Below are positions 25,641 through 63,320 of a stretch of 64,000 nucleotides of DNA, piece after piece. The stretch is from Paenibacillus sp. FSL R7-0204. GTDB lineage: Bacteria; Bacillota; Bacilli; Paenibacillales; Paenibacillaceae. The notes under the pieces were generated by a model, which saw nothing but the letters and a program-made list of their open reading frames with translations, was not told the DNA's origin and ran no database searches. The DNA lies in contig NZ_JBBOCA010000001.1 in NCBI RefSeq assembly GCF_038002225.1, positions 7,538,660 to 7,602,659 on the forward strand, written 5' to 3'. How positions within the stretch are numbered: the stretch's first letter is position 1; each line of letters starts with the position of its first letter. The position numbers were made by a program, and so were the translations under genes.

Positions 25641-25817
25641 CGGACTGAGGTGCTCTTATCCGGGAAGAAAGTCATCACTTGGGCGATTAGCGGACCGCAT
25701 GGACCTTATCCCCTGCCATTCAGCTCCAAAACGTCTCGCAGAAAGACGATAAGGTCCACTGAGTCCGTTACGCTGCAAAAGGTGGCGTTCTCGTGGGGAT
25801 AAGGTCTCTTCGGTCCG
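25641..25817. repeat. Four-unit array, forward-forward-reverse-reverse, 50-bp spacing
   Basis: Unit consensus CGGACY-N4/5-GACCTTATC. Forward copies start at 25641 and 25691, reverse copies at 25748 and 25797/25798. Like-oriented copies are exactly 50 bp apart. The outer flanks extend the symmetry: AGCGTAACGGACT at 25634-25646 is the exact reverse complement of AGTCCGTTACGCT at 25760-25772. The array lies just after the 3' end of clpB. Confidence 0.85.
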
Positions 25818-25858
25818 TTGACACTGTACTAGGAGGTGACGCCGTGGCCCATTACATT

Positions 25859-28501
25859 TCACATCGATCCTACTGTCTTCGCAGACTCTGATTTCGCTAT
25901 TGCAACAGTCAGCTCGCCGTCCGCTTCATCGACCGTCATCACTGAGCCTTCCTCCGCTTCTCCGGCGATCAGCGCACGCGCTACCCGGGTCTCCAGGCTG
26001 CGCTGGATGAACCGCTTCAGCGGTCTGGCGCCATAGACGGAGTCGAAGCCTTCCTCGGCAATGAAGCGCACCGCCCGGCCGCTCAGCATGAGACCGATGT
26101 TCCGATCAGCCAGGCGCAAGCGCAGGCCATCGACCAGCTTAACTACAATTCTTTGGGTATCGCCCAGTGTCAGCGGCTTGAACATTACAATATCATCTAC
26201 CCGGTTGAGGAACTCTGGACGGAAGTGCCCGCTCAGCTCCTTCATGACCCGGTCCTTCACGGCTTCGGTCAGCTCGCCGTTGTCATCCGTGCCCTGAATC
26301 AGATGCGGTGAGCCGATATTGGAGGTCATGATGATAATGGTATTCTTGAAGTCGACCATCCGGCCCTGTGAGTCGGTCAGCCGGCCGTCATCCAGCAACT
26401 GCAGAAGGATGTTGAATACATCCGGGTGCGCCTTTTCCACCTCATCCAGCAGGACTACCGTATACGGCTGGCGGCGTACCGCTTCGGTCAATTGTCCCCC
26501 TTCTTCATAGCCGACATATCCGGGAGGAGCGCCTACGAGACGGGAGACACTATGCTTCTCCATGTATTCCGACATATCGATACGGATCATACCGTCCTCG
26601 CGGTCGAACAGCGATACCGCCAGTGCTTTGGCCAGCTCTGTCTTCCCGACCCCGGTCGGTCCAAGGAACAGGAACGAGCCGATCGGACGGTTGGGGTCCT
26701 TGATGCCGGCTCTTGCCCGGAGTACGGCATCAGCTACCAGCCGGACCGCCTCATCCTGCCCGACTACCCGTTCATGCAGCGTATCCTCCAGCCGCAGCAG
26801 CTTATCCCGCTCTCCTTCCACCAGTCTGCTTACGGGAACACCCGTCCAGCGCGAGACAATATCGGCGATTTCCTCCTCTGTCACGGCTTCACGCAGCAGC
26901 CGGGTCTCCTGATCCTGCTGCGCCGCTTCCTCCGCCGCCTTAAGCTGCCGCTCCAGATCAGGAATAATGCCATAACTCAATTCAGCCGACTTATTGAGAT
27001 CATAGATCTCCTGCGCATCGACCAGATCCTTGCGGGCCTGCTCCAGCCGCTTCTTCAGGTCACGGATGCCCTGAATGGCCGATTTCTCCTTCTCCCAGCG
27101 GGCTGTCATTCCCAGATGCTTCTCCTTGAGGTCAGCCAGCTCCCGCTGGAGGTTCTCCAGACGGCGCGCACTGGCGTCATCAGTTTCTTTTTTGAGCGCA
27201 GCTTCCTCTATCTCCATCTGCATCAGGCGGCGGGTCACCTCATCCATCTCGCCGGGCATGGAGTCAATCTCCGTGCGGATCATCGCGCAGGCTTCATCGA
27301 CCAGGTCAATCGCCTTATCCGGCAGGAAGCGGTCGGTAATATAACGGTTAGACAGCACACCGGCTGCGACCAGGGCACTATCATAGATTTTGACCCCGTG
27401 ATGCACCTCGAAGCGTTCCTTCAAGCCGCGTAGAATCGAAACGGTATCCTCGACATCCGGCTCGCTGACCAGCACCTGCTGGAAGCGGCGTTCGAGCGCC
27501 GGGTCCTTCTCAATATATTTGCGGTACTCATCCAGCGTGGTTGCCCCGATACAGTGCAGCTCACCCCGGGCCAGCATCGGCTTCAGCATGTTCCCCGCAT
27601 CCATGGCCCCCTCAGTCTTACCCGCACCTACAATCGTATGCAGCTCGTCTATGAACAGAACAATCCGTCCGTCACTCTCGCGGATCTCCTTCAGCACCGC
27701 CTGCAGCCGCTCCTCAAATTCCCCGCGGTATTTCGCACCGGCAATCAGCGCACTCATATCCAACGAGAAAATCGTCTTGTCCTTCAGTCCCTCCGGCACA
27801 TCCCGGCGGACAATCCGGTGGGCCAGCCCTTCGACAATCGCTGTCTTCCCGACACCCGGCTCCCCGATCAGGACAGGGTTATTCTTGGTCTTGCGGGAGA
27901 GGATGCGGATCACCCGGCGAATCTCGGCATCCCGGCCGATGACCGGATCGATCTTGCCTGCCCGTACCTCGGCTACGAGATCGCGGCCGTACTTCTCCAG
28001 CACCTCATAGGTGGCCTCCGGCTCCCGGCTGGTCACCCGCTGGTGTCCGCGAATCTCCGCTAACACTCCAAGCAGCTTCTCCCGGGTAATCCCGCGGGTA
28101 ACGAATAATGCGCGCAGCTCGCGGTTCCCGCTGCTTGCATCCGAGACCATCGCCAGGACAGCATGCTCCACCGCGACGAATTCGTCCTGCATCTTGGCCG
28201 CTTCCTGCTCCGCCTGCTCCAGCATGGCAATCAGCGCAGGCGAGGCATAGCGCCGCATGGTGCCTGCTCCGCTCCCGCTTACGCTGGGTTTGCGGTGAAG
28301 CAGCGCCTCTGTTCCCTGCAGCAGCTCGGCTGCGGGAACATTCATCTTCTGCAGCAGACGGGGCAACAGGCCCTCATGCTGCTGGAGCAGTGCCTTCAGC
28401 AGATGAAGATTGTCAATCTCCTGATGCCCGCCGGAAGCCGCCAGCGACTGCGCCTCTGCCACTGCTTCCTGCAGCTTCTGGGTAAGCTTATTGAAATCCA
28501 T
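25859..28501 (-). CDS. clpB: ATP-dependent disaggregase ClpB
   Basis: 880 residues, the usual length. Clp N domain (residues 1-145), first AAA+ module with Walker [14 protein letters not shown] and Walker B LFIDELHT, the coiled-coil M domain (about 405-525, including [19 protein letters not shown]) that contacts DnaK, and second AAA+ module with [14 protein letters not shown] and [11 protein letters not shown]. The D2-small domain ends with [14 protein letters not shown]. ClpB works with the DnaK system to pull proteins out of aggregates. It is the last gene of the hsp20/J-protein/clpB set, 77 bp after the J-protein gene. AAAGG lies 11 bases before the ATG. Confidence 0.97.
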
Positions 28502-28578
28502 ACAATCATCGCCTTTCTAAATGTATAGGTTAATCAACCGGATGCCCGGCTGTTATATATGCTGAACTTGAATATTCT

Positions 28579-29574
28579 TTACCGTGTTGCCGCTCTTCGC
28601 CGCTGTGCTCCGCCTGTGGTACTCCGTTTCGCGCCGGCCTGGAAGCTGCCGGACTCCGCTAGCTGACGGTACAGCTTCTTCTCTGCCTCGGTCGTTCCGG
28701 CCGGAATGACCATCTCCATCCGGAACAGGATGTCACCATTCGTTCCGTCCGGACGTCTCAGCCCCTTGCCGGAGAGGCGCAGCGTTCCGCCGCTGGCTAT
28801 CCCGGCAGGGATCTTCAGCTTCACGCTGCTGCCATCCGGCAGCGCCACCTTGGCTTCCCCGCCAAGCACAGCCTGCCAGGGGGCGATCTCAACCGTGCCG
28901 AGCAGATCCCCGCCGTCCGGCTCATAGATCTCATGCGGCAGGAGATGCAGCGAGATCAGCAGCTCGCCGCCCTGGCCCGCTCCGCTTCCGCCGCCGGGTA
29001 CCCGGATGAGCGTCCCTTCCGCCGAGCGTGCCGGAATCTGTACATTCAGGTCCTTGCCTGCCGCCTGAACGCTGATATTACCGCCTCTATAAGCCTGCTC
29101 CAGCGTAATCTCAAGCTGGGCCTGCATCGTACTGAACTCATCCCCCCACGGGCTTCCGCCTGGACGGGCGCCACTGCTGCCGGAGAAGAAGCCGGCGCGG
29201 TCAGCCGCGCCCCGGCTGCCGAAGAACATCCCGAACAGATCCTCTTCGGGTATACCACCGGAAGAGGCGGCTCCGCTGCTCCAGCCCGCGCCAAACGGCG
29301 ATTCCCATGACGCAGAGGAGGCTGATCCGTAGCTGCGCTGGCCCCGTGAGCCTGCTTCGGCTCCATAGCGGAGCTCCTCATCATAGATTTTGCGCTTCGC
29401 TTCATCGCCCAGCACCTCATATGCCTCGGCTGCTTCCTTGAATTTCGCCTCTGCCTCCGGCGCCTTGTTGACATCGGGGTGCCATTTTTTGGCCAGCTTC
29501 TGATAGGCCTTCTTAATCTCCTGCTTCGAGGCCTTCGGTTCTACCCCAAGACGCTCATAATAATTTGCCGCCAC
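28579..29574 (-). CDS. J-domain co-chaperone (CbpA/DnaJ class B type)
   Basis: 331 residues with a GTG start, AAAGGAGGAGG upstream. The J domain at residues 4-70 has the HPD tripeptide ([14 protein letters not shown]). A Gly/Ser-rich linker (about 75-145) follows, then two DnaJ C-terminal substrate-binding domains ([41 protein letters not shown]). The zinc-finger Cys repeats of DnaJ are absent, so it is the CbpA class. It stimulates Hsp70 ATPase activity and brings substrates to DnaK. Its place between hsp20 and clpB makes a disaggregation operon. Confidence 0.93.
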
Positions 29575-29821
29575 CGGGACCTCCTCCTTTCGTGTAATGG
29601 GAACCTTCTGCCTTCCTCCGGGAAAAGACGCATTATAGCTGGAACCCCCACTACAATGCGTCTAATATGAAGTGCTATATGAAAAGCCCGGTGAAATCCT
29701 GCTGCCGCCCGGTGAACCGGATAGGCCAGCGGCTACAGCCGCTAAGCCCGGAGCTCCTGCGGAAGCGGCAGCTTCAGCCCGACTTGGAAGTCCATCTGCC
29801 TCTTAAGGCTGCCCCTTCAGC

Positions 29822-30301: not shown

Positions 30302-30356
30302 CTTTCATTCTCCTCTCATTTGACTTTTGATTTTTTGAATTCGGTCTTGCTAAGAC

Positions 30357-30373: not shown

Positions 30374-30382
30374 TATGGCTTT

Positions 30383-30506: not shown

Positions 30507-30514
30507 TTCCTGCT

Positions 30515-32633: not shown

Positions 32634-32702
32634 TAGATCATCAGATTTAAACCTCATTCTCGCGTATTCATTCGGATACTATAGGCGCTGGAACACCAGT
32701 TA

Positions 32703-32883
32703 CTGCATTCTGTACAATGGAATGATGTCAAAACAGCTTCCAAATAGATTCTATTGTATTCGGTACAATTGATTGTTGAACAAAGGCTATTTTTCGCCCA
32801 AAATGCCATGTTCCAATGTACGAAATACAATAGAATATTATTTCACGGTCAAATATAAGCTTTCTATTGCAGGAAATACAATC
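32703..32883. repeat. Four-unit array, forward-forward-reverse-reverse, 51-bp spacing
   Basis: Unit consensus about ATTGTATTTCGTACAAT, itself a near-palindrome. Forward copies start near 32703 and 32754, reverse copies near 32813 and 32864; both like-oriented pairs are 51 bp apart. The array fills the AT-rich gap between the converging MocR and WYL regulator genes, so it lies downstream of both. Confidence 0.8.
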
Positions 32884-34401: not shown

Positions 34402-34491
34402 GGCCGGGAAGGCTGAGGTAACCTCGGGCCGATGGGCATTGCGGCAAATGCAATATGCTCCACAGACCTAGGCATCTTCGCGCGGGTCCAA

Positions 34492-34615
34492 TGTAATCGG
34501 TTTTTCGATTACAATCGGCCCAGTAGCCATCGCGCCGTCCAATGTAATCGGTTTTTCGATTACATTGGGTCTACGTGGCGTGCATAGTCCAATTGTGGTC
34601 GGTTTTTCGACCACA
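34492..34615. repeat. Three perfect hairpins at exact 51-bp spacing
   Basis: Three hairpins with loop GTTTTT and 8-bp perfect stems: TGTAATCG/CGATTACA starting at 34492 and 34543, and TGTGGTCG/CGACCACA at 34594. Starts are 51 bp apart each time. In the second the stem extends to 12 bp (CCAATGTAATCG). The third differs by two bases in each arm, and the changes compensate each other, which keeps the pairing. The array lies between the converging VOC and alkA genes. Confidence 0.9.
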
Positions 34616-34691
34616 TCCGCATTGGGCAGATCAGCCGCAACAACGTAAACAAAGCAGGGTCCCGCCATACTTAAGGGGACCTTGCTTTGTT

Positions 34692-36727: not shown

Positions 36728-37118
36728 CCCCATCACCTCTTACCGCCAGTATAAACGATTCGTTTTGATATATGCAGCTATTGCAATAGGAGAGCAAGAT
36801 TACGACAGTGATGCTGGGGGTTTCCCGCCAAGCACAACTAGAGTAGAAATCAATGAAATCGCGGATCTATAGTCCGTCGGATAGAGGAATCTCCCCCTGC
36901 AACAAACAATTGGATAAACGTCTTATCTAGCGGATTTTCGGGCAATGTGCGCAAGCAAGTGGAAAAACACCAGCTATTAATGCTAGTATTGGCTACTTGG
37001 GTTAGAATGGAACCTTTTAAGTGTTGTTTTTACAACTGTTGTTCCAAAAGGGGCGATTCGCTCATCAGCAAGTGTACGATATCCAACTACTCTCTTTATT
37101 CGGAGGACTAAGAACCCA
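36728..37118. other. Divergent intergenic region upstream of ada
   Basis: About 390 AT-rich bases between ada (minus) and a GNAT gene (plus). Just upstream of ada is a perfect 6-bp inverted repeat AAACGA-T-TCGTTT (36753-36765) overlapping a TATACT -10-like hexamer on the minus strand, a candidate Ada control site although it does not match the known B. subtilis ada box well. The rest shows no gene or RNA. Confidence 0.4.
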
Positions 37119-39746: not shown

Positions 39747-39751
39747 AGAAC

Positions 39752-40384: not shown

Positions 40385-40538
40385 TTTTCACTCTCTCCTA
40401 GGATGATAGATTTCTATCTTAGACGCCACTCAAGCATATTTGTTTCTATAAAATCAATATTATGTAATTGTTCAGCCCGCCTATCTCTCTTCAATTCCGA
40501 GTGTTTTCTCTCACCGGCCGGTTGCTTGGAGGCGCATT

Positions 40539-40612
40539 GTTGCATTTTTTGCAGGATTCTTCTAAAAAATCTTATGGGCTACGGCACATTGTTGCATAAT
40601 TTGCAGGAAATT
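40539..40612 (+). repeat. GTTGCA array, left part (units 1-2), cut by the IS element
   Basis: Two units of the form GTTGCA-N5/6-TGCAGGA start at 40539 and 40591 (52 bp apart). The array resumes after the IS256 element at 42064. Removing the element and one 8-bp duplication restores a 52-bp step to unit 3. The upstream flank (CTCACCGGCCG at about 40510) also recurs at the two other loci of this family. Confidence 0.85.
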
Positions 40613-40634
40613 CAGTGTTTAGAGCAAGTTCGCG

Positions 40635-42047
40635 GATGGCGTAAAGTAAGTTGTGTACCAAGATTTGGAGCCTAGTCAGGCACCAAAAAAGTAGGGTATC
40701 CTCGGGATTGCGAAACCACCAAGGAGGAACCCTACCAATGAATATTTTACCCGAAAGTTCGCTGAATAATCTATTTGAAAAACTTGTTAAAGATTTTGTG
40801 AAAGACAACATGGAACGCCTGTTGCGCGCCGAAATCCAGGGGTTTATGGAGAGTGAAGAAGCCGGCGCCAGCAATAGTCGCAATGGCTACTATACGCGAG
40901 ACTTACACACGAAATATGGCCATATCGAGGATCTTCAGGTGCCCCGGGACCGCCAAAGCCTTTTCCAGACGCAGTTGTTTGAGCCGTACCAGCGGCGGGA
41001 CGGATGGTTAGAAGAGGCCGTCATCCAAATGTATAAATCGGGCATGGGTACGCGGGATGTGGCCCGGTTCATTGAAAGTATGTTTGGTAGCCACTACTCC
41101 CCAACCACGGTCAGCAATATTACGGCTACAGTGCTGGACGATATCCACCAGTGGCAAAAGCGGCCACTGAGCAAACGGTATTCTGTGATCTATTTAGATG
41201 GGCTGTACGTGAAGCTGAAACGGGGCACGGTTCGTGGTGAAGTGGTCTACTTTGCGATGGGAATTGACGAGGAGGGACAGCGTCAAATTCTCGGGTTCTA
41301 CGTGGGTGGCCAAGAGAGTTCGAATGGCTGGCGGGAGGTACTCAAAGACCTGTACGACCGCGGAGCGCAGGAAGTCCTGCTGGGTGTGTTTGACGGGCTA
41401 CCGGGACTGGATGCGGCGTTTAAAGAGACCTATCCTCAGGCGGATGTACAGCATTGCGTAGTGCACAAAGTGCGGGCCACGTTTCATAAAATTCGGGTGG
41501 AGCACAAAACCGATGTCATGGAGGCGTTGAAAACCGTATATACAGCACCGGATGAAGTGGTAGCCCGGGCTAACTTTGATACGGTCAAAGCGAAGTGGAA
41601 CAAGCTGTATCCGAAGGAAATGAGGTCCTGGGAGGAACAGTTATCCACACTCCTGACGTTCTACAACTATCCGCTGTCGATCCGTAAAGCGATCTACACG
41701 TCGAACCCCATCGAGCGGATGAACAAGGAAATCCGCAAGCGTCTGAAACCGATGAACAGTCTGACAAACATGGATGCCGCAGAGAAAATCGTGTACCTGG
41801 AGATGCTGGAATACAATGAACGTCATGCAGGGCGGGTCGCCCAAGGCTTTGGAGTGGATGCCGTTAAAAAGAAGCTAAAAGAGCTATTCGAAACACGCTA
41901 CCCCTCTTTGCCCACACCGGAAGAGGCGTAGCAGATAAATCCAGTTTCTGGGAGTCGGGGTTCCCCCTCCCCCCAGAAACACTACATCCCAACCCGTAAC
42001 CCGGGGGAGGCACTTCTACTCTTTTACACAAACTTCTTGACGCTACC
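40635..42047 (+). mobile_element. IS256-family insertion sequence, complete
   Basis: 1413 bp. The ends GATGGCGTAAAG (left, 40635 on) and CTTGACGCTACC (right, ending 42047) are imperfect inverted repeats of about 24-26 bp, sharing GCGT.AAG and TTGTGTA. It is bounded by an 8-bp direct repeat AGTTCGCG at 40627-40634 and 42048-42055, the target duplication usual for IS256. It carries one intact transposase gene. The target was an intergenic GTTGCA repeat array. The clean ends and intact gene suggest a fairly recent insertion. Confidence 0.93.
40738..41931 (+). CDS. IS256-family (mutator-type) transposase
   Basis: 397 residues from the ATG at 40738 with AAGGAGGAACC upstream. Typical segments: EIQGFMESEEAGASNSRNGY near the N-terminus, first catalytic Asp in VIYLDGLYVKLKRG, second in LLGVFDGLPGLDAAF, the Cys/His region DVQHCVVHKVRATFHKI, and catalytic Glu in YTSNPIERMNKEIRKR. 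This is the DDE set of the IS256/MuDR group. The gene looks intact, so the element may still be active. Confidence 0.95.
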   Translation: MNILPESSLNNLFEKLVKDFVKDNMERLLRAEIQGFMESEEAGASNSRNGYYTRDLHTKYGHIEDLQVPRDRQSLFQTQLFEPYQRRDGWLEEAVIQMYKSGMGTRDVARFIESMFGSHYSPTTVSNITATVLDDIHQWQKRPLSKRYSVIYLDGLYVKLKRGTVRGEVVYFAMGIDEEGQRQILGFYVGGQESSNGWREVLKDLYDRGAQEVLLGVFDGLPGLDAAFKETYPQADVQHCVVHKVRATFHKIRVEHKTDVMEALKTVYTAPDEVVARANFDTVKAKWNKLYPKEMRSWEEQLSTLLTFYNYPLSIRKAIYTSNPIERMNKEIRKRLKPMNSLTNMDAAEKIVYLEMLEYNERHAGRVAQGFGVDAVKKKLKELFETRYPSLPTPEEA

Positions 42048-42063
42048 AGTTCGCGCTGACTAT

Positions 42064-42135
42064 ATTGCATTTTGTGCAGGATTTCAGCATCGGGCGCTTC
42101 TATTGGACAGTATTGCTGCACATTTTGCAGGATTT
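42064..42135 (+). repeat. GTTGCA array, right part (units 3-4)
   Basis: Units start at 42064 (ATTGCA variant) and 42115 (GCTGCA variant), 51 bp apart, each followed by TGCAGGATTTC. They complete the four-unit array interrupted by the IS256 element. The array lies upstream of the SWIM-domain gene. Confidence 0.85.
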
Positions 42136-42279
42136 CTCTACAATGTACGAGCATGGCCCCCCTCTGGCCGTCAGCCATATCATACCTGCCAGGATTTCAG
42201 ACATTTCCGGGATACGCTATACAAAAATGATATAATGGAACGATGGATTCACCCAATCTGCTACAGGAGAACGATAGCG

Positions 42280-49779: not shown

Positions 49780-49890
49780 ATGTTGTCTATGAAGCTCTAG
49801 AAGCAAATCACTCTGCGGGTAAACGATGCTGGTTCCTCATCGCTTTCTGGAGACAAACCTCCAACCCATATGCCGTTTTGGCCACACACA

Positions 49891-49915: not shown

Positions 49916-50007
49916 TGAAGGGGCTTCTTCCTTTCCTGGCGGTGCTCCGCCTATCTCTTGCCCATTCTGAGCGTGTTATCTCACCGACCGCTTGCATGGA
50001 TCGCATT

Positions 50008-50185
50008 GTTGCACATCTTGCAGGATTTCTCTAAAAATGTTACTGCCCACGGTACATTGTTGCATCATTTGCAGGAATTCCGTTGTTTAGTACAACTTAG
50101 CGTTGGCTTTGTTGCATTTCATGCAGGATTTCAGCAGAAGCCGCTTCTATTGGGCAATATTGCTGCACTTCTTGCAGGATTTCTC
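50008..50185 (+). repeat. GTTGCA array, four uninterrupted units
   Basis: Units GTTGCA-N5/6-TGCAGGAWTTC start at 50008, 50059, 50111 and 50162, i.e. steps of 51, 52 and 51 bp, all in the same orientation. The sequence between units is also partly shared with the loci at 40.5/42.1 kb and 63.1-63.3 kb, so the whole block is one repeat family. It lies between hflX and the converging sugar operon. Confidence 0.9.
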
Positions 50186-50240: not shown

Positions 50241-50372
50241 TGTGTTCAGTTTTCGCATACATTTGGTCCGTCGGCCATCGCAGCGTGTAATGTGTTCGGT
50301 TTTTCGACTACATTCGGCTTCGCGCACTTGTACCTGCCTATGATGTTCGGTATTTCGCATACGTTCAGCCTT
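50241..50372. repeat. Three hairpin-family units at 50-51-bp spacing
   Basis: Units TGTGTTCGGTTTTTCG-like start at 50241, 50291 and 50342. Their stems are less perfect than at 34.5 kb, but the core CGGTTTTTCG and the spacing are the same. They directly follow the GTTGCA array. Confidence 0.75.
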
Positions 50373-50384: not shown

Positions 50385-52508
50385 TTATGGCTCTCCCGGA
50401 GCGGGCCGCAGGTTAAGTACGAACCCGCCCCTCATGCTATTGATGTTACTCATGTTATTCATGCTGTTCACGACTCTTACACCCCGCTCTCCCTTCTCAA
50501 CATTCGTTTTATTCATTTCATTCGCTCCCTTCTCATCATTCCATTCGTTGACCCTCTTCGCTCCCGCCGCCTTCCCTCCTGCAATTCCCTGCGCTCTGTC
50601 CTCTTCGTACTCTATCCCACTGCGAACCCGCAGCCCGCCCTCATCCGTCAGCTCCAGAAGCGGGGCAGAGTTCAATCTCCCCTCCTCCCCAGCCGCCAGA
50701 GAGTACACCAGCGCTGCCTGCTGCATGGAGGTGAAATTGAGGGTCCTGCGCGGACCGGCGCAGAGAATCATATCGATATTTATGCGGCTGTCTGTCCTAT
50801 GAATTTCCCATGCCAAGCGGTTCTCTGCATCAGCTGGTCCGCTGAATACCGCGAACCAGGTAGTCAGGCCAAACTCCGTCCCTCCGATGCTGATCACCGC
50901 ACCTTCCTCTGTTAATCCGGCTGTAACTCCCTCCAGTGCGCCGCCAACCTCCAGCCGCAGCCGCAGGTCCGAGGCTGCAATCACACCGCCGGTCCGGTCC
51001 AGATTCGGATGGGTATCCCCGCCATCTGTCATGAAATCGATCCCGAACAGCACATGGCCTGCTTCCTGCAGCGATTGGAAGCGTGCGGAGCAGTAGTCAT
51101 AGCCGTCATGCAGGCAGCGGAGCCGGAGATATGAGGGCTGTCCGTTATTATTGGCATAGATCAGCAGCGGCCGTCTTTGGTTCCACAGATCACTATGGGT
51201 GAAGGAGCCCATGCTCCACTGCGGAGTCATATAAGTGACCGCCCACTTGCCGTCATACCCCTGATTCTGATTTTGCACCTGACCCTGACCTTGCTCCTGA
51301 TCCCGACCTTGCACCTGCCCCTGCCCCTGACCCTGACCCTGATCCCGCCCTTGCACCTGACCCTGACCTTGCTCCTGATCCCGACCTTGCTCCCGATTCC
51401 GCTCCTGATCCCATTCCTGATCCCGCCCTTGTTCCTGGCCCAACTCCCGCTTCCGCTCTTTCCCTGTCCCCTGCTCCTGCCCTTTCTCCTCCCCTTCCAA
51501 GCGTTGCCTTATCTCCTTCGTCTCAGGAACCTTGAAGCCCTTCAGATAGGCAGGGGGACAATGAATGCCGCTCATATACCATTCCTCTTCGTAGGGCAGC
51601 TCCTCCCATGGGAAGAACATCACGGCTCCTCCTGTCGCCAGTTGCAGAAACGCCTTGCTCTGGTCCTCCAGCAGCACTCCGTAACAGCGGGAATGCGGGC
51701 CGGACCACTGGGCCGTGGCGGGGTGATAATACCCGGCCACGGTCCTCCAGGTCAGCTCTAGCAGTTCTCTGGTCCATGCCTTAACCCTGCTGTCCGAGGT
51801 CTCGGACTGAAGCTTCGACAGCTCCAGAATGGCAATGTAGGTGTAGACAGGGCTGTTAAATTCCTGAAAAGCCCCATGCTTCAGGGTATGAGCATGCAGC
51901 CTCCTGAGCCGCTCCAGCCCATAGTCCGCATAATCCTTACGCCCCAGCTTCTCCCCGGCAATTCTGGTCACGAACGCGCCAATAATCGCAATATTGGTAT
52001 AATCCGGTCCGACATTGCGCCGGATAATGGCTTCGCAGGCACACTCTATGGACAAGACGGCTGCTTCCCGCAGATCGTGCGGGAAACGGTGGCCGTGGCG
52101 CGAAAGGGCCTGCACCAGTCGGCTGCCGCAGAAGTCCGCCCAATTCCAGTCCGGCGGAGCCATCTGGTCCAGCGGCTCCTCATAGAACCAGGACCAGATG
52201 CCGAAGGTATCATGCGCCGGGTCCGTATCCTGCAAGGAGATGACCTGCCGGATAATATCGAATGCCCGCTCTTCATAACAGGCCAGCTCCGTGTCGAGCA
52301 GTCCAAGCGCATAGCTGAGCGAGTCTCTGGTGGAGTGGATGAACTCCGCCTGCTTCAGCGTCGTATGATACCCCGGGCTGCTGAACGGGGAGCGCAGCAT
52401 GCAAATGTCCGAGTCATAGCGGGATTCCAGTCCGGTCACCTTATGAATCAGCCGTTGCCGCTGATCTAGGCCTCCACCCGCAGCTTCTGCGTTATCCTTC
52501 ACCGTCAT
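50385..52508 (-). CDS. Putative carbohydrate-degradation protein with Gln/Gly-rich repeat insertion
   Basis: 707 residues, ATG with GGGGAGG upstream; the start overlaps the GH88/105 gene stop (ATGA). Residues 1-330 are helical with many aromatics (GIWSWFYEEPLDQMAPPDWN, YTNIAIIGAFVTRIAGEKLG) and look like an alpha/alpha-toroid; residues 425-640 are beta-rich (TYMTPQWSMGSFTHSDLW), as in polysaccharide-lyase or heparinase-like proteins. Between them, about 335-420 is a run of Gln, Gly, Asp, Arg and Glu in short repeats (RDQEQGQGQVQ). No signal peptide, so cytoplasmic. Enzyme class not certain; the locus supports a role in sugar breakdown. Confidence 0.7.
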   Translation of the reverse strand: MTVKDNAEAAGGGLDQRQRLIHKVTGLESRYDSDICMLRSPFSSPGYHTTLKQAEFIHSTRDSLSYALGLLDTELACYEERAFDIIRQVISLQDTDPAHDTFGIWSWFYEEPLDQMAPPDWNWADFCGSRLVQALSRHGHRFPHDLREAAVLSIECACEAIIRRNVGPDYTNIAIIGAFVTRIAGEKLGRKDYADYGLERLRRLHAHTLKHGAFQEFNSPVYTYIAILELSKLQSETSDSRVKAWTRELLELTWRTVAGYYHPATAQWSGPHSRCYGVLLEDQSKAFLQLATGGAVMFFPWEELPYEEEWYMSGIHCPPAYLKGFKVPETKEIRQRLEGEEKGQEQGTGKERKRELGQEQGRDQEWDQERNREQGRDQEQGQGQVQGRDQGQGQGQGQVQGRDQEQGQGQVQNQNQGYDGKWAVTYMTPQWSMGSFTHSDLWNQRRPLLIYANNNGQPSYLRLRCLHDGYDYCSARFQSLQEAGHVLFGIDFMTDGGDTHPNLDRTGGVIAASDLRLRLEVGGALEGVTAGLTEEGAVISIGGTEFGLTTWFAVFSGPADAENRLAWEIHRTDSRINIDMILCAGPRRTLNFTSMQQAALVYSLAAGEEGRLNSAPLLELTDEGGLRVRSGIEYEEDRAQGIAGGKAAGAKRVNEWNDEKGANEMNKTNVEKGERGVRVVNSMNNMSNINSMRGGFVLNLRPAPGEP
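51268..51485 (-). repeat. Low-complexity tandem repeats inside the 707-residue protein gene
   Basis: Repeats of CCTGACCCTGA-like hexamers encode the Gln/Gly/Asp/Arg-rich insertion. Unit lengths vary around 12-14 codons (QGRDQEQGQGQV). Slippage-prone. Confidence 0.85.
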
Positions 52509-53845
52509 CCCCCTGCCTCCCCTTCAACATTTAATGAACCTATCCCCTCGGATTGCTCCTGACGTCGCTGACCCCCTTGACGCTCTGGATGTTCTTCACG
52601 CCCTTGGTCCTCTTGTCCTCCCTGACGCTCCTCATGTTCTTCACGCCCTTGGTCCTCTTGTCGTCCCTGGCGCTCCTCACGTTCTTCACGCCCCTGGCCC
52701 TCTTGTCGTCCCTGGTGCTCCTGACGCTCCTCATGCTCTTGCCTCTCAAGCCGATGCTTCATTTCCCCCAGATCCAATGCCTCTGTCAGCAGTTGCATCA
52801 CCAGCCCTTGCCCATACAGTGCCGGATATCTCTCAATGGTGTTATAGGCCGCTATCGACGGCATGACCGGAGTGCCTCCCGAGACCCCCTGCACCTCACC
52901 GTCTTCGCGGATGAGCGGAAGAATCCCCGCAAGTGCCGCCTCCGCGCTCTCCAGATAGGCATCCTCCAGCAGTCCGCTCTTCACCGCCTTCAGGAAGCCG
53001 CAGGCAATACCGGCGCTGGCCGAGGTCTCCTCGTAATAATCCCGCCGGTCGAGCACCGTATGCCACAAGCCGCCGGCCCCCTGCGCCTGCCGCAGGGCAG
53101 AAGCAAGCCTGCGGTAGCGGCTGTACAGCTCCTGTGGAATAGCAGTCAGGCTTCCGGTCCCGGACACAATCTCGGGGACCGCAAGTGCCACCCAGGCATT
53201 GGCCCGGGCCCAGCGGGCTGCCGACATATGGCTGCCTGCCCGGCTGTTCCAGCCATGGAATAGCAGCCCCGTCGACGGGTCCTGGAGCAGACGAAGGTGC
53301 AGCAGGGTCTGGTGCATGGCGGCGGCAGCAAGCTCCTGGTCGCCGGTCAGACCGGCAAGCCGGGCCAGGAACAGCACGGCCATATACACCGTATCGGCCC
53401 ATACCTGTTCAGGGAATTCCACGGCCTCTGTCACGGTATGCTCCAGCGCGCCTTCCCGGGTCCGGGGGGCAGTATCCAGCATCCACGCGGCAACCTCCTG
53501 CGCCCGGCTGAGAAACCACGGGTCCCCGGTCAGCCGGTACAGCTCAGGAAAGACCGCGTAGGGAGCCAGGGAATTGATAACCCGAACCCCTTCGGCCTTC
53601 TGCTTATTCCGGTTCACCCAGTGCAGCAGGTAATCCGTCACCTCATCCTGACCAGTCCCTGTGCCATATTCAAGCATAGAGATGACCCCGACACCGGGCA
53701 CCCAGTCCCAGTGGTTAATATCCATTCCCCAATTCCCTTGATGCCGTTCAAGACGCATATATTCAAAGATCTGGCGCAGCTTCGCCTCCAGTTCCCGCTG
53801 CCTGCCCGCTGCCCGTTTTGCCTCTGATTCCTGTTTCGCACTCAA
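52505..53845 (-). CDS. Glycoside hydrolase family 88/105 (unsaturated glycuronyl hydrolase-like)
   Basis: 446 residues from a TTG at 53845, which has GGGAGG 11 bases upstream; a TTG at 53884 overlapping the GH3 stop (TTGA) is the alternative start. The (alpha/alpha)6-barrel pattern includes WGMDINHWDWVPGVG, FPEQVWADTVYMAVLFLARL (catalytic Asp region), GWNSRAGSHMSAARWARANA and SASAGIACGFLKAV. These enzymes hydrolyse unsaturated sugar acids released by polysaccharide lyases, such as rhamnogalacturonan fragments. The last 85 residues are a charged repeat tail (three 15-residue repeats). No signal peptide. Confidence 0.9.
   Translation of the reverse strand: MSAKQESEAKRAAGRQRELEAKLRQIFEYMRLERHQGNWGMDINHWDWVPGVGVISMLEYGTGTGQDEVTDYLLHWVNRNKQKAEGVRVINSLAPYAVFPELYRLTGDPWFLSRAQEVAAWMLDTAPRTREGALEHTVTEAVEFPEQVWADTVYMAVLFLARLAGLTGDQELAAAAMHQTLLHLRLLQDPSTGLLFHGWNSRAGSHMSAARWARANAWVALAVPEIVSGTGSLTAIPQELYSRYRRLASALRQAQGAGGLWHTVLDRRDYYEETSASAGIACGFLKAVKSGLLEDAYLESAEAALAGILPLIREDGEVQGVSGGTPVMPSIAAYNTIERYPALYGQGLVMQLLTEALDLGEMKHRLERQEHEERQEHQGRQEGQGREEREERQGRQEDQGREEHEERQGGQEDQGREEHPERQGGQRRQEQSEGIGSLNVEGEAGG
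52591..52730 (-). repeat. 45-bp tandem repeats in the GH88/105 gene tail
   Basis: Units start at 52591, 52636 and 52681, an exact 45-bp period, giving 15-residue repeats of the type QGREEHEERQGGQED. They form the C-terminal tail beyond the catalytic barrel. Confidence 0.9.
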
Positions 53846-59178: not shown

Positions 59179-59239
59179 AGTAACACCCTCTCTTGATCAG
59201 ATAGGGGCTCCCCAAAGGCTGGATTAGCGAAAGAGAATA

Positions 59240-59290
59240 CCCGGTACCTGCCGCAGGCGGCCGCGTGACTGCTTGCTGCCGGGTACCGGG
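59240..59290 (-). terminator. Hairpin between the binding-protein gene and the secreted hydrolase gene
   Basis: CCCGGTACC (59240-59248) and GGTACCGGG (59282-59290) form a perfect outer 9-bp stem; inner GC-rich bases extend it. The T-tract is weak, so it may work as a partial terminator or stabiliser of the upstream transporter message. Confidence 0.65.
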
Positions 59291-59310
59291 CGTGCTATGG
59301 CCTCTACTGC

Positions 59311-60864
59311 TTATTTGGCGGCCAGAAAAGCGTCGAGCTGACTCTGAATTTCCGTAATCACAGCGTCCAGGCCTGCGGCCTTCAGCTTGCTGTTCATCTC
59401 CTTCAGGACCGGCTCAGGGTCCTTTTCTCCGGAGAACAGGGTATTCTTATACTGCTTCGTGATGTTGATCAGCGCCCCGATCTGCGACTGCACCTTAGTT
59501 GAATCGAACACAAACCCGATGACCGGTGAAATATTCGAATTCTTATTCCAGTCTGTATAGAGCTGCACGCGCTTCGGATCTTCATCCTTATTTAGGTAGT
59601 TCAACAGCACATTGCCGATCATCCAGGAGGATACGGAGTTATAGCCGCTGTCCGCAATGAACTCTACGGTATTGTTCTCCAGCTTCTTGTAGTGCTTGCC
59701 CTCAATGCCGAAGGTCAGCAGGTTGTAGAGCACCGGATCGGTGTGAATCAGGTTCATGAACATCATGGCCCGCTCGGGGTTCTTCGAGGTTCTGGAGATG
59801 GCGAGCATCGAGCCCTGCAGACTCTTGGTGCTGACCTGAACAGGCAGCAGCGTCTTGATGATCATCGGCTTCTCGGCGAGCCGGGTCCAGTCATTGGTGG
59901 AGGTCGGATTCATGTTGCCGTAGACGAACCAGGCTTTGCCGCTTTTGACCGCATCCTTCAGCTCGGTCTTGTCTGTAGCTCCGTTCTTGTTGATATAGCC
60001 CGCTTCATACCAGCTGCGGATCAGCTTCAGCCGCTGCGTCATGGCCGGCGTGTCATATTCGTTGAACACCTTCATGGTCTTGTAATCCAGCAGGGTCGGG
60101 ATATCATTGCTGCCGTCTAAGTCCTCGCTGTCAGGATACGCAGTGAACCAGTGCAGGCTGTCGGTATGGTTCATGAACAGCGGAGAGAGGGCCGGCTCCT
60201 TCTCCTTAATCGTCTTCAGCATCGGTTCAATATCCTCCAGCTTCTGGAGGCTGTTCACATCGAAGCCGTATTTATCCACAATCGCCTTGTCAAAAGCGAA
60301 CCCGACCGACTGCCCCAGCTCCTTCTCGGTTGGAACCGCATACAAATGTCCGTTGACGGTAGCTGCCTGCAGGTAAGCGGGATTGATCTGTGCCTTCGTC
60401 TCCTTGGCATAGGTGTCCAGCAGCTCCTCCAGCGGCAGATACGCCCCCTTCGCGGCGTTGGTCATGAAGTTCCAGGTATAGACCATATCGAACACCTCGC
60501 CGGACTGGATCATCAGGTTGACCTTGTCAGCCGGTTTATCCCAGCTCAGCTGGTTAATCTTGATTGTGGCATTGATTTTGTCCTTCAGATAAGCATTGAT
60601 CTCCTGCTCCACGGACGCCACGTCCTTATCCGGCCCGCCGGGCAGATACAGGGACAGCTCCACCGGCTCAAGCGCATCCGGCGCTTTGGTCCCGGGCGCT
60701 TCCGTTGCTGTAGCTTCCTTCGTTGCTGCCGGAGCTGTGGTACTCTCTCCCGTTTTCTCTGTAGGCGCAGCCGTATTGTTGTTATTGCCGGAGCATCCGG
60801 CCAGGGTGAACCCCGCCATAAGCACAAATGACAGCAGCAGACCTGTGACTTTTTTACTTGCCAT
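59311..60864 (-). CDS. Carbohydrate ABC transporter substrate-binding lipoprotein
   Basis: 517 residues, ATG with GGGGAGGAAAA upstream. Lipoprotein signal GLLLSFVLMAGFTLAGCSGN with lipobox Cys at about 24, then a Thr/Ala/Glu-rich linker. Belongs to the large solute-binding family 1 (LplA-like) of Paenibacillus, usually for oligosaccharides. It follows the two permease genes on the same strand. There is no ATPase gene nearby, as is usual for this class, which shares an MsmX-type ATPase. Confidence 0.92.
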   Translation of the reverse strand: MASKKVTGLLLSFVLMAGFTLAGCSGNNNNTAAPTEKTGESTTAPAATKEATATEAPGTKAPDALEPVELSLYLPGGPDKDVASVEQEINAYLKDKINATIKINQLSWDKPADKVNLMIQSGEVFDMVYTWNFMTNAAKGAYLPLEELLDTYAKETKAQINPAYLQAATVNGHLYAVPTEKELGQSVGFAFDKAIVDKYGFDVNSLQKLEDIEPMLKTIKEKEPALSPLFMNHTDSLHWFTAYPDSEDLDGSNDIPTLLDYKTMKVFNEYDTPAMTQRLKLIRSWYEAGYINKNGATDKTELKDAVKSGKAWFVYGNMNPTSTNDWTRLAEKPMIIKTLLPVQVSTKSLQGSMLAISRTSKNPERAMMFMNLIHTDPVLYNLLTFGIEGKHYKKLENNTVEFIADSGYNSVSSWMIGNVLLNYLNKDEDPKRVQLYTDWNKNSNISPVIGFVFDSTKVQSQIGALINITKQYKNTLFSGEKDPEPVLKEMNSKLKAAGLDAVITEIQSQLDAFLAAK

Positions 60865-60916
60865 ACTTTTTCCTCCCCTTGATGGACAAATATATGCTAA
60901 TCGGTAGGTTCCGAGG

Positions 60917-61810
60917 TTAGCCTTTGATAGAGCCGAGCGTCAGTCCTTTGATGAAATACCGCTGGAAGAACGGATAGGCCAGTACAATCGGCCCGATGCC
61001 GATCAGCGCCATTGCCATACGGATCGTTTCCCCCGGTAATTTGGCCAGCTCGGTGGCCGAGCCTTGAATGAGTGCCCCGTTGCGGCTCAGGTAGTCTGCC
61101 TGGGAGATCATTTTGTACATGAGATATTGGAGGGAATAGAGGTCTGTGTCGGTAATGAAAATCATGCTGTTAAACCAGTCATTCCAGTAATGCAGCGTGT
61201 TAAAGAGCCCAATGGTCGCGAAGACCGGCAGAGACAGCGGGAAAACAATCCGGAAGAACGTCCTTAGCTCCCCCGCTCCGTCAATGGTAGAGGCTTCAAT
61301 CAGCGCGGGCGGCACGCTCATCTGGAAGTATGTCTTCATGATCAGCACATTGAATGGGGACAGCAGCATCGGCACTACCAGCGCCCAGATGGAGTTCTTG
61401 AGGTCCAGCACCTGAGTGTAGACCATATACCACGGCACCAGCCCGCCGCCGAACAGCATGGTGAAAAAGATCAGAAAAGCGAACACCCCCCGGTACCGGA
61501 AATCCGCCCGCGATATCGGATACGCATACAGGGAAGAGAGGAACACACTGGCCAGCGTTCCGGTGATCGTGACGAAGAACGAGATGCCATAGGCCCGCAG
61601 CACCACACTGTAATCCTTGAATATATAGGTGTAAGCCTCCAGGCTAAGCTTCTCCGGAAAGAACTGATAGCCATTACGGACGATGTAATCGTAATCAGTT
61701 ATGGAGATCATGAACACAAGTACAATCGGCAGCAGGCAGGCCAGGGACAGGATGATAAAAATAATATGGAGGAGAACGTTAGTAAATCGGGATATTTCGT
61801 TATTAGCCAC
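60917..61810 (-). CDS. Carbohydrate ABC transporter permease (LplC/YtcP-type)
   Basis: 297 residues with a GTG start, AAGGAGTGG upstream. Six hydrophobic helices; the coupling loop EASTIDGAGELRTFFRIVFP is the EAA motif of MalG-type permeases. It pairs with the upstream permease to make the sugar channel. Fifty-two bases separate it from the binding-protein gene. Confidence 0.93.
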   Translation of the reverse strand: MANNEISRFTNVLLHIIFIILSLACLLPIVLVFMISITDYDYIVRNGYQFFPEKLSLEAYTYIFKDYSVVLRAYGISFFVTITGTLASVFLSSLYAYPISRADFRYRGVFAFLIFFTMLFGGGLVPWYMVYTQVLDLKNSIWALVVPMLLSPFNVLIMKTYFQMSVPPALIEASTIDGAGELRTFFRIVFPLSLPVFATIGLFNTLHYWNDWFNSMIFITDTDLYSLQYLMYKMISQADYLSRNGALIQGSATELAKLPGETIRMAMALIGIGPIVLAYPFFQRYFIKGLTLGSIKG

Positions 61811-61856
61811 GGATTTCCACTCCTTCTACAGGGTACGTGCGCCGCCTGACTTTTAG

Positions 61857-62846
61857 CTAGAAAACCGCCTGATCCTTATCAACCTTGCGCACGATCCAGT
61901 TCGAGCCGAGGACCAGGAAAAAGCCGACCACCGATTGGTATAATCCGGCTGCTGCGGACATCCCCAGGTTACCCATATTAATCAGCGCGTTATAGACGTA
62001 GGTGTCGATGACCAGTGTGGTCGGGTACAGCGCCCCGGAGTTCAGTGTCGTCTGGTAGAACAGCCCGAAGTCGGAACGGAAGATGCCCCCGATCGCCAGA
62101 ATCGTTGTAATAATAATGACCGGCCGGATGAGCGGAATCGTGATGTGCAGAATCTGCTTCCACTTGCTGGCACCGTCGATCAGAGCCGCTTCATAGTACT
62201 CGTTGTCAATGCCGATGATCGCCGCCAGATAGATGACACAGCCATAGCCCACCCCTTTCCAGAGATTAATCAGCGGCAGAATGAACGGCCAATACTTCGG
62301 CTCCGAATACCAGCTGAGCTCATCCAGCCCGAACAGGGCGAAGACCCCTTTATTGATGAAACCGTATTCAACATTCAGAAAAGCGAATACCAGATAGCTC
62401 ACCACCACCATCGACAGGAAGTAGGGGAAGAACATGATGCTCTGATAGAATTTGGCGGCCAGCTTGTTCCTCAGCTCATTCAGGGCCACCGCGATGGATA
62501 CGGCGAAGAGCAGATTGAGCACAATGAACACGAAGTTGTAGAGCACCGTATTGCGTGTGATAATCCAGGCATCCGAGGTGGCGAACAGGAATTTGAAGTT
62601 ATCCAGCCCCACCCACGGACTGCCGAGAATCCCGTCTACATAGTTGATGTTCTTGAACGCAATCACAATTCCGAACATCGGCAGATAGTTGTTGATCAGT
62701 AAAAATACTACGCCCGGCAGCAGCATCAGCAGCAGTATCTTATGCTTCAGCAGATGCTTCAGCCTGTGTCTCTTCTGCGTGTTCCGGCCTACAGGCAAGC
62801 TGCTGCCACCTGTACCCGCCACACTTCTCTTCGTCTTCATAACCAT
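61857..62846 (-). CDS. Carbohydrate ABC transporter permease (LplB/YteP-type)
   Basis: 329 residues from the ATG at 62846 with GGGAGGCGG upstream; the frame extends to 62933 without support. A basic N-terminal tail of about 40 residues precedes the first helix (KILLLMLLPGVVFLLI). The EAA loop is EAALIDGASKWKQILHITIP. First gene of the transporter operon. A conserved 28-bp element lies 85 bp upstream. Confidence 0.93.
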   Translation of the reverse strand: MVMKTKRSVAGTGGSSLPVGRNTQKRHRLKHLLKHKILLLMLLPGVVFLLINNYLPMFGIVIAFKNINYVDGILGSPWVGLDNFKFLFATSDAWIITRNTVLYNFVFIVLNLLFAVSIAVALNELRNKLAAKFYQSIMFFPYFLSMVVVSYLVFAFLNVEYGFINKGVFALFGLDELSWYSEPKYWPFILPLINLWKGVGYGCVIYLAAIIGIDNEYYEAALIDGASKWKQILHITIPLIRPVIIITTILAIGGIFRSDFGLFYQTTLNSGALYPTTLVIDTYVYNALINMGNLGMSAAAGLYQSVVGFFLVLGSNWIVRKVDKDQAVF

Positions 62847-62930
62847 TGTCTTCCGCCTCCCGGTTCCTTCAGCAGTCCCTCTCTTCCCTGACTTCAGTGT
62901 ACCCGCAGGAGGCCCCATGCTAAATAAGGC

Positions 62931-62958
62931 CATCTATAATAAAAGTTCAAAATCCTAC
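62931..62958 (-). promoter_or_regulatory. Conserved promoter-proximal element upstream of the transporter operon
   Basis: Twin of the element at 55643-55670 (23 of 28 identical). On the minus strand GTAGGATTTTGAACTT is followed by ATTATAGA, with TATAGA as a possible -10 and no good -35, which suggests an activator-dependent promoter (AraC-type activators are common partners). Confidence 0.65.
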
Positions 62959-63071
62959 GGAGTTTGGAAGGGCCTCGCTTCTGCTTCTGGACATCTGCGA
63001 ATTCAGGGGCAGTAATGCTCCCCGTGCTCCCTTCTAGATTGCATCCCGCCCACGCATCTTCGCGGCAACGC

Positions 63072-63096
63072 ATTGTGCTCGGTTTTTCACATACAT
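63072..63096. repeat. Hairpin-family unit
   Basis: TTGTGCTCGGTTTTTCACATAC resembles the units at 50241-50372 (core CGGTTTTTC), placed 70 bp before the GTTGCA array as part of a composite repeat block. Confidence 0.5.
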
Positions 63097-63141
63097 TTTG
63101 TCCACTCGCCTTCTCACCGGCCGCTTTTAAGGAGCAGTAAT

Positions 63142-63320
63142 GTTGCACTTGTGGCAGGATTCACCTATACCTTTTACTGGTTGCAAGTACAATGTTGCAT
63201 TATTTGCACAAATTTCGGTGCTTCGAGCAAGTTAGCACTGAATTTGTTGCAGTTCGTGCAGGATTTCAGCATTGACCGCTTCTTTGGGGCAGTATTTGTT
63301 GCACTTATTGCAGGATTCCT
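63142..63320 (+). repeat. GTTGCA array, four units
   Basis: Units start at 63142, 63194, 63246 and 63298, three steps of exactly 52 bp. Orientation is the same as at 50.0 kb; the flank CTCACCGGCCGC and the sequence between units 2 and 3 (GAGCAAGTTAGC) are shared with the other loci. It lies between the transporter operon and the collagen-like gene. Confidence 0.9.

Follow-up and report, generated by a model that had tools for sequence, protein, structure and literature searches.

Intergenic regions of Paenibacillus sp. FSL R7-0204 and its relatives carry arrays of short motifs that differ in sequence from family to family but keep a nearly fixed spacing, which suggests a common putative protein machine measuring distance along the double helix. 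Two plans recur. The H family forms tandem arrays at 51 bp; P and several other families form a dyad in which two forward sites are followed by two reversed ones, with centres about 51, 62 and 51 bp apart. Small intergenic repeats are usually classed by sequence, and a geometry common to unrelated sequences escapes sequence clustering. If a protein complex reads this geometry, the arrays would lead directly to a factor for the nucleoid, for recombination or for mobility in a large soil genus, and would serve to test whether helical phasing can be read from genome sequence alone.

Motif families and their spacing

The window is the whole stretch of 64,000 nt that was analysed. The four motif families described in an earlier note are all present where that note placed them. 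Arrays and associated features in the window are as follows.

25639..25819, C family (CGGACY..CCTTATC), four-site dyad: forward 25639-25660 and 25689-25710, reversed 25748-25769 and 25798-25819; 50-63-50 by palindrome centre
32702..32883, P family (ATTGTATTTCGTACAAT), four-site dyad: forward at about 32702-32718 and at 32750-32772, reversed 32811-32835 and 32862-32883
34486..34620, + strand, H family (GTTTTT-loop hairpins, AATGTAATCGGTTTTTCGATTACATT), tandem array of three sites at 51 bp
36908..37088, T family, dyad: forward (TTGGATAAAC..), forward (GTGGAAAAAC..), then two reversed
40531..40608, + strand, Q family (GTTGCA..TGCAGG), units A and B, 52 bp apart
40635..42047, + strand, IS256-type insertion sequence within a Q element (ORF 40651-41931, Transposase_mut)
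42066..42136, + strand, Q family, units C and D, 51 bp apart
50000..50183, + strand, Q family, units A-B-C-D at 51-52-51 bp
50242..50371, + strand, three hairpin units resembling H, at steps of about 51 bp, adjoining the Q element (read by eye)
63072..63319, + strand, one H-like unit (63072), then a Q element (63134-63319) at 52 bp

The Q units ending at 40608 and starting at 42066 are separated because the IS256-type sequence entered a single four-unit element. Flanking the insertion is a duplicated 8-bp target, AGTTCGCG (40627-40634 and 42048-42055), and both P. silagei (L146) and P. piscarius (L149) have the site without the insertion. The T dyad was absent from the earlier inventory; its last three sites match a pattern, and the first, read by eye, is about 2 nt short. 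A single extra H-like unit was also seen by eye near 49885.

We scanned the 36 gaps of the window (7,755 nt) for 20-nt segments matching at 15 or more of 20 positions. Matches fall at 51 bp (n = 61) and 52 bp (n = 27), and also at 102, 156, 104, 155 and 50 bp; the only remaining distances are 125 bp (8), 49 bp (1) and 29 bp (1). Across 60 evenly spaced 20-kb stretches of the genome, the 162,443 non-ORF bases give 483 matches at 51 bp, 17 at 50 bp, 4 at 52 bp and none at 49 or 53 bp, compared with 26 in shuffled sequence with all distances summed. The 51-bp signal is carried by 12 of the 60 stretches, or 18 with another ORF mask. On the "coding" side of the same mask there are 1,066 matches at 51 bp and a maximum of 1,763 at 225 bp; the 51-bp component probably arises mainly because 51 bp is 17 codons, so that spurious frames stay open through arrays. 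Masking only ORFs of at least 450 nt reduces this component to 333 and brings the count in gaps up to 1,239. In intergenic direct repeats 51 bp is the top distance, and it is not the top distance in genes or in 200 kb of E. coli.

Per-array counts agree with this picture. Gaps of this genome give 20 counts at 51 bp, 4 at 52, 2 at 50 and 2 at 53 among 99 events. For 80 related loci, mostly from Paenibacillaceae, the counts are 22 at 51 bp, 13 at 50, 10 at 52 and one each at 49 and 53 among 182, the distances of 50, 51 and 52 bp together making up 45. Seven per-array counts lie at 61-63 bp, of which three are other repeats as judged by eye. The earlier note had claimed a 50-52-bp period shared by unlike motifs and proposed a distance scan of the genome and its relatives. 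That scan bears the claim out: 51 bp leads in the window, in the gaps of the genome sample and in the 80 related loci, and shared spacing without shared sequence extends beyond the window to sequence-unrelated families of other species.

The four-site dyad and its second distance

The P family has the exact spacing 51-62-51 in 25 of the 27 four-site loci examined. A first set contributed 15 of 17, using one unconstrained scan and a second look limited to 6 nt around the expected places, and a further set contributed 10 of 10, along with three loci that have three sites at 51-62. The 62-bp distance is based on palindrome centres. Measured in the same way, the T family gives 51-63-51 (once in L154, twice in L155), the N family 51-63-52 (L170) and the CAGGAATTACTCCAG family 51-61-51 (L224). 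The clusters listed from a loose-pattern scan for T are mostly due to chance, and the regularly spaced ones alone were used; their 51-56-51 by pattern start converts to an inner 62 by centre. The C family gives 50-63-50 or 51 (window, L052, L067, L197) and 50-64-50 (L187), but is weakly palindromic, so that its inner distance of 63-64 bp becomes 65-66 bp with another anchor. One array, L176, has 17 sites with steps mostly of 52 and 62 bp in alternation. Tandem families lack a 62-bp step.

We tried 25 site sets from other families, in arrays preselected by repeats at 49-53 bp, so that their first distance is partly a product of selection. A step of 61-66 bp is present in 12 sets and a 113-bp step in 2 more; 4 show only 51 bp with at least three sites, 5 contain no more than two sites, and neither plan fits the remaining 2 (L224 with 67 and 50; L147 with 51 and 53). 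The scan for dyads in these families admitted outer distances of 46-56 bp, inner distances of 40-90 bp and up to 8 mismatches of 23 per site; what selection does not prescribe there is the presence of an inverted pair and the size of the inner distance. An unbiased four-site scan gives mainly 51 bp for the first distance, and a shift of anchor trades against the second.

The distances of 51 and 61-63 bp differ by about one helical turn. With the three three-site P loci counted as full dyads and L187 left out, the pooled means of 51.0 and 62.3 bp correspond to 4.90-4.95 and 5.99-6.05 turns at 10.3-10.4 bp per turn, and at 10.5 bp per turn they fall short of whole turns by 0.14 and 0.07; the gene fraction of 0.78 used in the pooled figures was judged by eye. 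The earlier suggestion that the sites must lie on the same face of the helix gains support from a second distance about one turn longer, found in P and in other families.

Conservation, gene context and competing explanations

We give an even chance to the reading that the units are platforms for putative dimeric DNA-binding proteins that need 5- and 6-turn phasing. Each unit, an imperfect palindrome, would be the binding site of a dimeric protein; paired sites would lie 5 turns (50-52 bp) apart, and in the dyads two such pairs would be oriented towards one another, with 6 turns (61-63 bp) between them at the centre. Four dimers, all on roughly the same face of a duplex of about 190 bp, could then form one wrapped or bridged complex. 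Spacing would be conserved because the machine measures distance, and families would differ because their letters drift with protein specificity. Candidate outputs are chromosome architecture, supercoil handling between convergent genes, or recombination. Protein binding, the dimeric state and a single kind of machine for all families are what we infer; what the sequences show is the two spacings, the dyad arrangement, the way both recur in different families and species, and four further observations detailed below: the orthologous P spacing, the lack of covariation in P, the preference for convergent gaps and the strand bias of H.

Among 16 P copies, identity is 66-75% in sites, 35-38% in linkers and 25-27% outside, and the spacing is nearly invariant. 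In orthologous P1 elements of three species, 82 of 92, 81 of 92 and 71 of 81 site positions are identical, compared with 65, 56 and 52 of 90 linker positions; a second orthologous locus, at 1.158 Mb, gives 84 of 92 and 70 of 90. Linkers have no gaps at either locus, and their letters are conserved no better than flanks. At the second locus the left flank, too, is nearly free of gaps (2 gap cells), and the fourth P1 site of P. phytohabitans is partly lost (11 gap cells).

Arrays favour convergent gaps (15 of 34, versus 45 of 270 background gaps) and avoid divergent ones (2 of 34 versus 64 of 270), in keeping with the earlier placement of the motifs near 3' ends. A terminator scan found no excess (16 versus 17.7 in shuffled sequence). 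The H family lies opposite to the leading strand in 95 of the 100 matches listed, 74 of 79 being on the − strand from 0.25 to 3.71 Mb and 21 of 21 on the + strand beyond; in genome G087, all 40 listed matches, from 0.10 to 3.22 Mb, are on the − strand. The earlier idea of a common machine is upheld in part by the shared spacing. A nucleoid or condensation factor would be one candidate for it; no partner protein recurs by eye among the genes beside large arrays in four relatives.

The dyads may instead be mobile elements that are non-autonomous, in which each end consists of two transposase sites spaced by 51 bp and the two ends lie back to back, with families differing as their transposases do, geometry kept by the synapse and tandem families arising by slippage. 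We regard this main alternative as rather unlikely. Copies of about 190 bp are widely dispersed, and signatures specific to a unit recur in different copies (units A-D of Q, the third unit of T). Occupancy of equivalent gaps varies: the P dyad at 32702..32883 was not seen by eye in the equivalent gap of L147, L148 or L149, and the gap of the H array at 34486..34620 holds an array in P. piscarius, a variant in P. silagei and none in L147 or L148. Some relatives have partly deleted copies with unclean borders. One gap can also hold different families, C in the window versus P/Q-like units in P. phytohabitans, and P in this genome versus H in P. silagei. Against mobility, inspection by eye of 18 P copies revealed no duplicated flanks, and no autonomous copy was found among the P and T places examined, where the sole transposase gene (between C1:1198435 and 1200262, a DDE transposase that we take to be IS1182-like) lies inside a P element and does not make that element autonomous. 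Idle relics would not be expected to keep linker length and orthologous spacing, yet linkers near background identity are unchanged in length and two orthologous elements keep their spacing. The mobile units with conserved architecture proposed in the earlier note may account for the dispersal and the variable presence.

The units could also act as hairpins in single strands, either as RNA or as DNA exposed on one replication strand, like REP or IS200/IS605 ends. The almost complete restriction of H to one replication strand fits this, as does covariation at one varying H stem position (108 of 178 paired, 59.3 expected); at another stem position, G.T (78) and A.C (6) follow column make-up (80.3 and 7.7 predicted). 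P sites behave otherwise. They are paired in 416 of 612 cells versus 434.6 ± 6.6 in shuffles, have 58 G.T and 61 A.C, and do not covary either locally or when units 1/4 and 2/3 are compared, which suits a protein site on duplex DNA better than a hairpin. With no Rfam match within the 64-kb window either, we rejected an RNA or hairpin model for P. Moreover, the orientation of H is contrary to that of the leading strand and, in each of the 3 tandem gaps, also to that of the genes. The REP transposase RAYT (NF047646) exceeds the cut-off in none of 100 genomes of the genus, with weaker matches in 31 (4 in this genome) and one of 14 control genomes above it; 8 of 13 H-rich genomes lack even a weak match. 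The Y1 transposase genes of this genome are IS200/IS605-like or broken, several presumably with TnpB-like neighbours. At locus L031, about 100 bp separate the left end of one copy from an H array. We therefore rejected RAYT/IS200 machinery as a general cause, and a single-strand role for the units is improbable. Far more so is functionless multiplication of a 51-bp unit by replication slippage. Near-identical H linkers, with 14 copies in one array, fit recent tandem duplication, and slippage may explain H copy number; it does not account for inverted pairs some 62 bp apart, for the geometry common to unrelated motifs or for orthologous linkers without gaps.

Returning to the dimer platforms, we tentatively propose, at a little below even likelihood, a new class of DNA element in Paenibacillaceae and perhaps further afield, in which geometry is inherited and sequence is not. 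Four dimer sites at 5-6-5 turns would serve a fast-evolving family of binding proteins that assemble one kind of nucleoprotein complex within 3' gaps, and a polar tandem form would follow the replication strands.

Relation to known systems

No description of such arrays in Paenibacillus was found in titles and abstract openings of the open-access literature, to which the search was confined. Their repeats are unlike those of CRISPR arrays, as they diverge in most arrays, dyads are inverted and H linkers repeat too. Resolvase res sites and multi-site transposon ends (Tn552, Mu, Tn7) contain several dimer sites at helically constrained distances, as proposed here, but are recombination sites beside their own enzyme gene, whereas the Paenibacillus sites lie at many dispersed places without one.

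The STAR elements of staphylococci are likewise short intergenic motifs at regular spacing, with 40-44 bp spacers at one locus and tandem repeats of about 50 nt; their positions are stable and their function is unknown, purifying selection being suspected by their authors (PMC3532100). STAR is one GC-rich direct motif of 14 bp, and the accessible part of that report describes no dyad, second spacing class or set of unrelated motifs with common geometry. By eye, none of the unit families compared matches its T(G/A/T)TGTTG(G/T)GGCCC(C/A).

The units are palindromic extragenic repeats of 20-40 bp, as REP sequences are; those of C and T are only weakly palindromic. REP, BIME and REPIN sequences are small, dispersed extragenic palindromes that occur singly, paired, clustered or sometimes in tandem (PMC3733652, PMC3116915). 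In the available text, REP families are marked at the end by GTAG or CGTC and their pairs are mostly 20-100 bp apart (PMC3733652), unlike the fixed spacing in Paenibacillus, a genus in which 100 genomes lack RAYT above cut-off. MITEs such as bcr1, RUP and ERIC (PMC3733652) are also dispersed and non-coding, and the forward-forward-reverse-reverse dyad does form terminal inverted repeats without coding capacity. No target duplication was seen by eye in the 18 P copies and no parent transposon found for the dyads, and they are built from four spaced sites, in contrast to the one terminal inverted repeat of 15-30 bp of MITEs.

Spacing of the motif families

The window comes from the end of contig C1 in a genome of 7.71 Mb. 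The earlier note had described four unrelated families of intergenic motifs that share a 50–52-bp period; all four, the palindromic site types H, Q, P and C, are present in the window with the spacing claimed. A fifth family, T, had been missed. Direct 20-nt similarity in the window's gaps (n = 36) clusters at 51 bp, at 52 bp and at multiples of the two.

Features of the window
32702–32883: P element (the 32.7 kb element)
32899: WYL-domain gene; protein 95% identical to its Paenibacillus silagei counterpart
36908–37088: family T
40635–42047: IS256-type insertion sequence splitting a four-unit Q element, with an 8-bp duplication (AGTTCGCG)
51273–51437 and 52578–52722: two adjacent ORFs whose coding sequence has tandem repeats (18/78 and 45 bp), unrelated to the arrays

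The genome was scanned in 60 evenly spaced 20-kb stretches, with gaps defined by an ORF-300 or ORF-450 mask. The anticipated peak within 48–54 bp was found: 51 bp accounts for 483 window pairs, against 17 at 50, 4 at 52 and none at 49 or 53, and a shuffled control gave 26 over all distances together. The next distance after multiples of 51 is 14 bp (88 window pairs). The signal appears in 12 of the 60 stretches under the ORF-300 mask and in 18 under ORF-450. On the coding side the 51-bp count fell from 1,066 to 333 once short ORFs no longer counted as coding; we think that 51 bp also appears there mainly because 17-codon arrays hold false frames open. At L031:860–1300, in one of the loci sampled, 51-bp arrays read as 17-residue repeats within false ORFs, and such arrays may figure in databases as hypothetical proteins.

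When every distance was scored once per array, gaps of this genome gave 20 events at 51 bp, 4 at 52, 2 at 50 and 2 at 53 (99 in all). Gaps of 80 related loci gave 22 at 51, 13 at 50, 10 at 52 and one each at 49 and 53 (182 events; 27 of the 80 loci), a count that retains arrays, such as those of L187, L210 and L220, that may be ordinary repeats. Coding sequence of the same loci gave 7, 0 and 3 events at 51, 50 and 52 bp, with 48 and 108 bp leading. Applied to 200 kb of E. coli K-12 (44 kb non-ORF), this count placed none of its 9 events at 49–53 bp, where the rate in our genome (26 in 230 kb) predicts about 5. Spacing of 50–52 bp with other letters is present in further relatives.

Tandem and dyad plans

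Two plans recur. In the tandem plan, 39 of the 43 pairs of H sites (AATGTAATCGGTTTTTCGATTACATT, with a GTTTTT loop) that neighbour each other within 130 bp are spaced at 51 bp, and one H array has 14 copies. Q (ATTGTTGCACATTTTGCAGGATTTC) forms in the window a four-unit element, A-B-C-D, with steps of 51–52 bp and unit-specific linkers that align from copy to copy; both P. silagei and P. piscarius carry the Q element of 40.5 kb without the interruption. Across the loci scanned, Q steps were 51 (19), 52 (12), 53, 54 and 74 (once each) and 103–104 bp (eight times). A further type, S (GAGCAAATCAGGAGCACAAGTGCACCTGAT), forms tandem pairs with 51-bp spacing at L048:16704–16791 and L060:10680–10771.

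The dyad plan, four sites ordered forward-forward-reverse-reverse, is found in P, C, T and further families. P was examined in stretches selected from its 78 places. The first 20, read by one free scan and one search allowing 6 nt around each expected place, have four sites in 17, spaced exactly 51-62-51 in 15 of these and 51-61-51 and 52-62-51 in the others; 13 new stretches (L271–L283) have four sites in 10, all 51-62-51, and three sites (51-62) in 3. Among the three remaining stretches of the first 20, L126 and L127 are two halves of one P element, whole in L269, that encloses a DDE transposase gene (L269:2233–3648), which we take to be IS1182-like; this is the second insertion sequence within these elements. 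The third, L132 (wider, L270), has a single P site. By palindrome centre, the non-P families repeat the dyad plan with quite different letters.

Non-P site sets (distances between palindrome centres, bp; steps for the last)
T dyad, L154 and L155 (twice): 51-63-51
C dyad (CGGACY..CCTTATC), window, L052, L067 and L197: 50-63-50 or 51
C dyad, L187: 50-64-50
TTGGATTTCATCCAA dyad, L170: 51-63-52
CAGGAATTACTCCAG dyad, L224: 51-61-51
TTGGAAATATCCAA sites, L196: 52-61-49, mixed orientation
TGTAACGATG..CATCGTTACA, L176: 17 sites, steps mostly 52, 62, 52, 62

These sets, matched with up to 8 of 23 mismatches, came from arrays detected through 49–53-bp repeats, one scan taking outer distances of 46–56 bp only, so the free result here is the inverted pair and the inner distance. 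Among 25 site sets, 12 have a 61–66-bp step, and another 2 step by 113 bp, the sum of 51 and 62; 4 with at least three sites have 51 alone, 5 consist of one or two sites, and L224 (67 and 50) and L147 (51 and 53) lie outside both plans. Direct-repeat counts place 4 of 182 events at 53–60 bp jointly and 7 at 61–63 bp; 4 of these 7 events come from such site families, and 3 are, judged by eye, other repeats. Palindrome-centre distances and direct-repeat counts thus give two spacing classes that differ by roughly one helical turn; at 10.3–10.4 bp per turn, 51.0 and 62.3 bp come, by calculation, close to 5 and 6 turns.

Genomic setting and conservation

The proposed enrichment near 3' ends gains support. 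Arrays with callable neighbours lie in convergent gaps in 15 of 34 cases, tandem in 17 and divergent in 2, against 45, 161 and 64 of 270 background gaps of at least 200 bp (Fisher p = 0.0008 convergent, 0.015 divergent), using simple ORF calls, leaving out ORF-overrun arrays and including some arrays from stretches chosen for P sites. H sites are oriented against the leading strand. By GC skew, replication starts near 0.2 Mb and terminates near 3.75 Mb; among 100 listed of the 180 exact genome-wide H matches, 74 of 79 at 0.25–3.71 Mb are on the minus strand and 21 of 21 beyond on the plus strand, while the other 80 comprise 78 plus and 2 minus. In the gap-type set, 8 of 9 H arrays (the exception a tie call) and 6 of 6 Q arrays oppose the leading strand. 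A second genus genome, G087, has 24 plus and 52 minus H matches, all minus among the 40 listed (0.10–3.22 Mb). The bias of P is slight (47 vs 31).

Of 100 genus genomes, 16 match a relaxed H pattern, 13 of them more than 30 times; a stricter pattern matched none of 23 genomes from the same order outside the genus. Q occurs in 41 of the 100 and is dense in mostly the same genomes as H, except that H-rich G109 has one Q match and G117 none.

Sixteen P copies of one genome have linkers 35–38% identical, only a little above the 25–27% for unrelated flanks, and yet nearly invariant spacing. The element P1 is retained at orthologous loci of P. piscarius, P. tritici and P. phytohabitans (fourth site partly lost in the last), and its sites are conserved more than its linkers (identical letters 82/92 vs 65/90, 81/92 vs 56/90 and 71/81 vs 52/90). 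Its linkers have zero gaps, against 16 to 153 gap cells per flank, and their letters are no better conserved than aligned flanks (P. piscarius, 54/73 left and 75/89 right). A second P element, kept in P. piscarius, also has gap-free linkers (sites 84/92, linkers 70/90), with 2 and 78 gap cells in its flanks.

Of 612 cells scored across 68 P units, 416 are paired, below the 434.6 ± 6.6 obtained with right arms re-dealt; the counts of G.T (58) and A.C (61) nearly match, and within an element units 1/4 and 2/3 resemble each other no more closely than they do across elements. These data tell against selective maintenance of a single-strand fold, and a palindromic duplex site fits them. The question is less clear for H: covariation is strong at one stem position, where 108 of 178 are paired and 59.3 would be expected, and at another G.T far exceeds A.C, as column make-up predicts.

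Interpretation and known systems

Most likely the arrays form a family of platforms that bind protein and are read through the distance between sites, an interpretation to which we give an even chance. A protein would occupy the sites, it would probably be dimeric, and one machine may serve all families. The main rival, which we consider rather unlikely, is a mobile element whose geometry is fixed by paired transposase sites. Elements other than the conserved P copies do come and go between species: the 32.7 kb P element was not seen in three relatives; that of L226 (~15870) has an internal deletion in P. tritici and was not seen in three others; and the gap holding C has a P/Q-like array in P. 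phytohabitans, with no array seen in P. tritici or P. piscarius. Both readings can hold in the history of the arrays, because a domesticated element would combine conserved spacing with scattered presence. Two more dispersed repeats, L226:16113–16263 (~145 bp, close to a P element) and L226:6587–6693 (~105 bp), have many matches in four relatives.

Membership of the REP/RAYT systems was rejected on the gene test, with no RAYT above the NF047646 cut-off in 100 genus genomes. The nearest described Firmicutes pattern that we encountered is that of the STAR elements (PMC3532100). In the parts of that description consulted, they are without a dyad and without a geometry common to several families.
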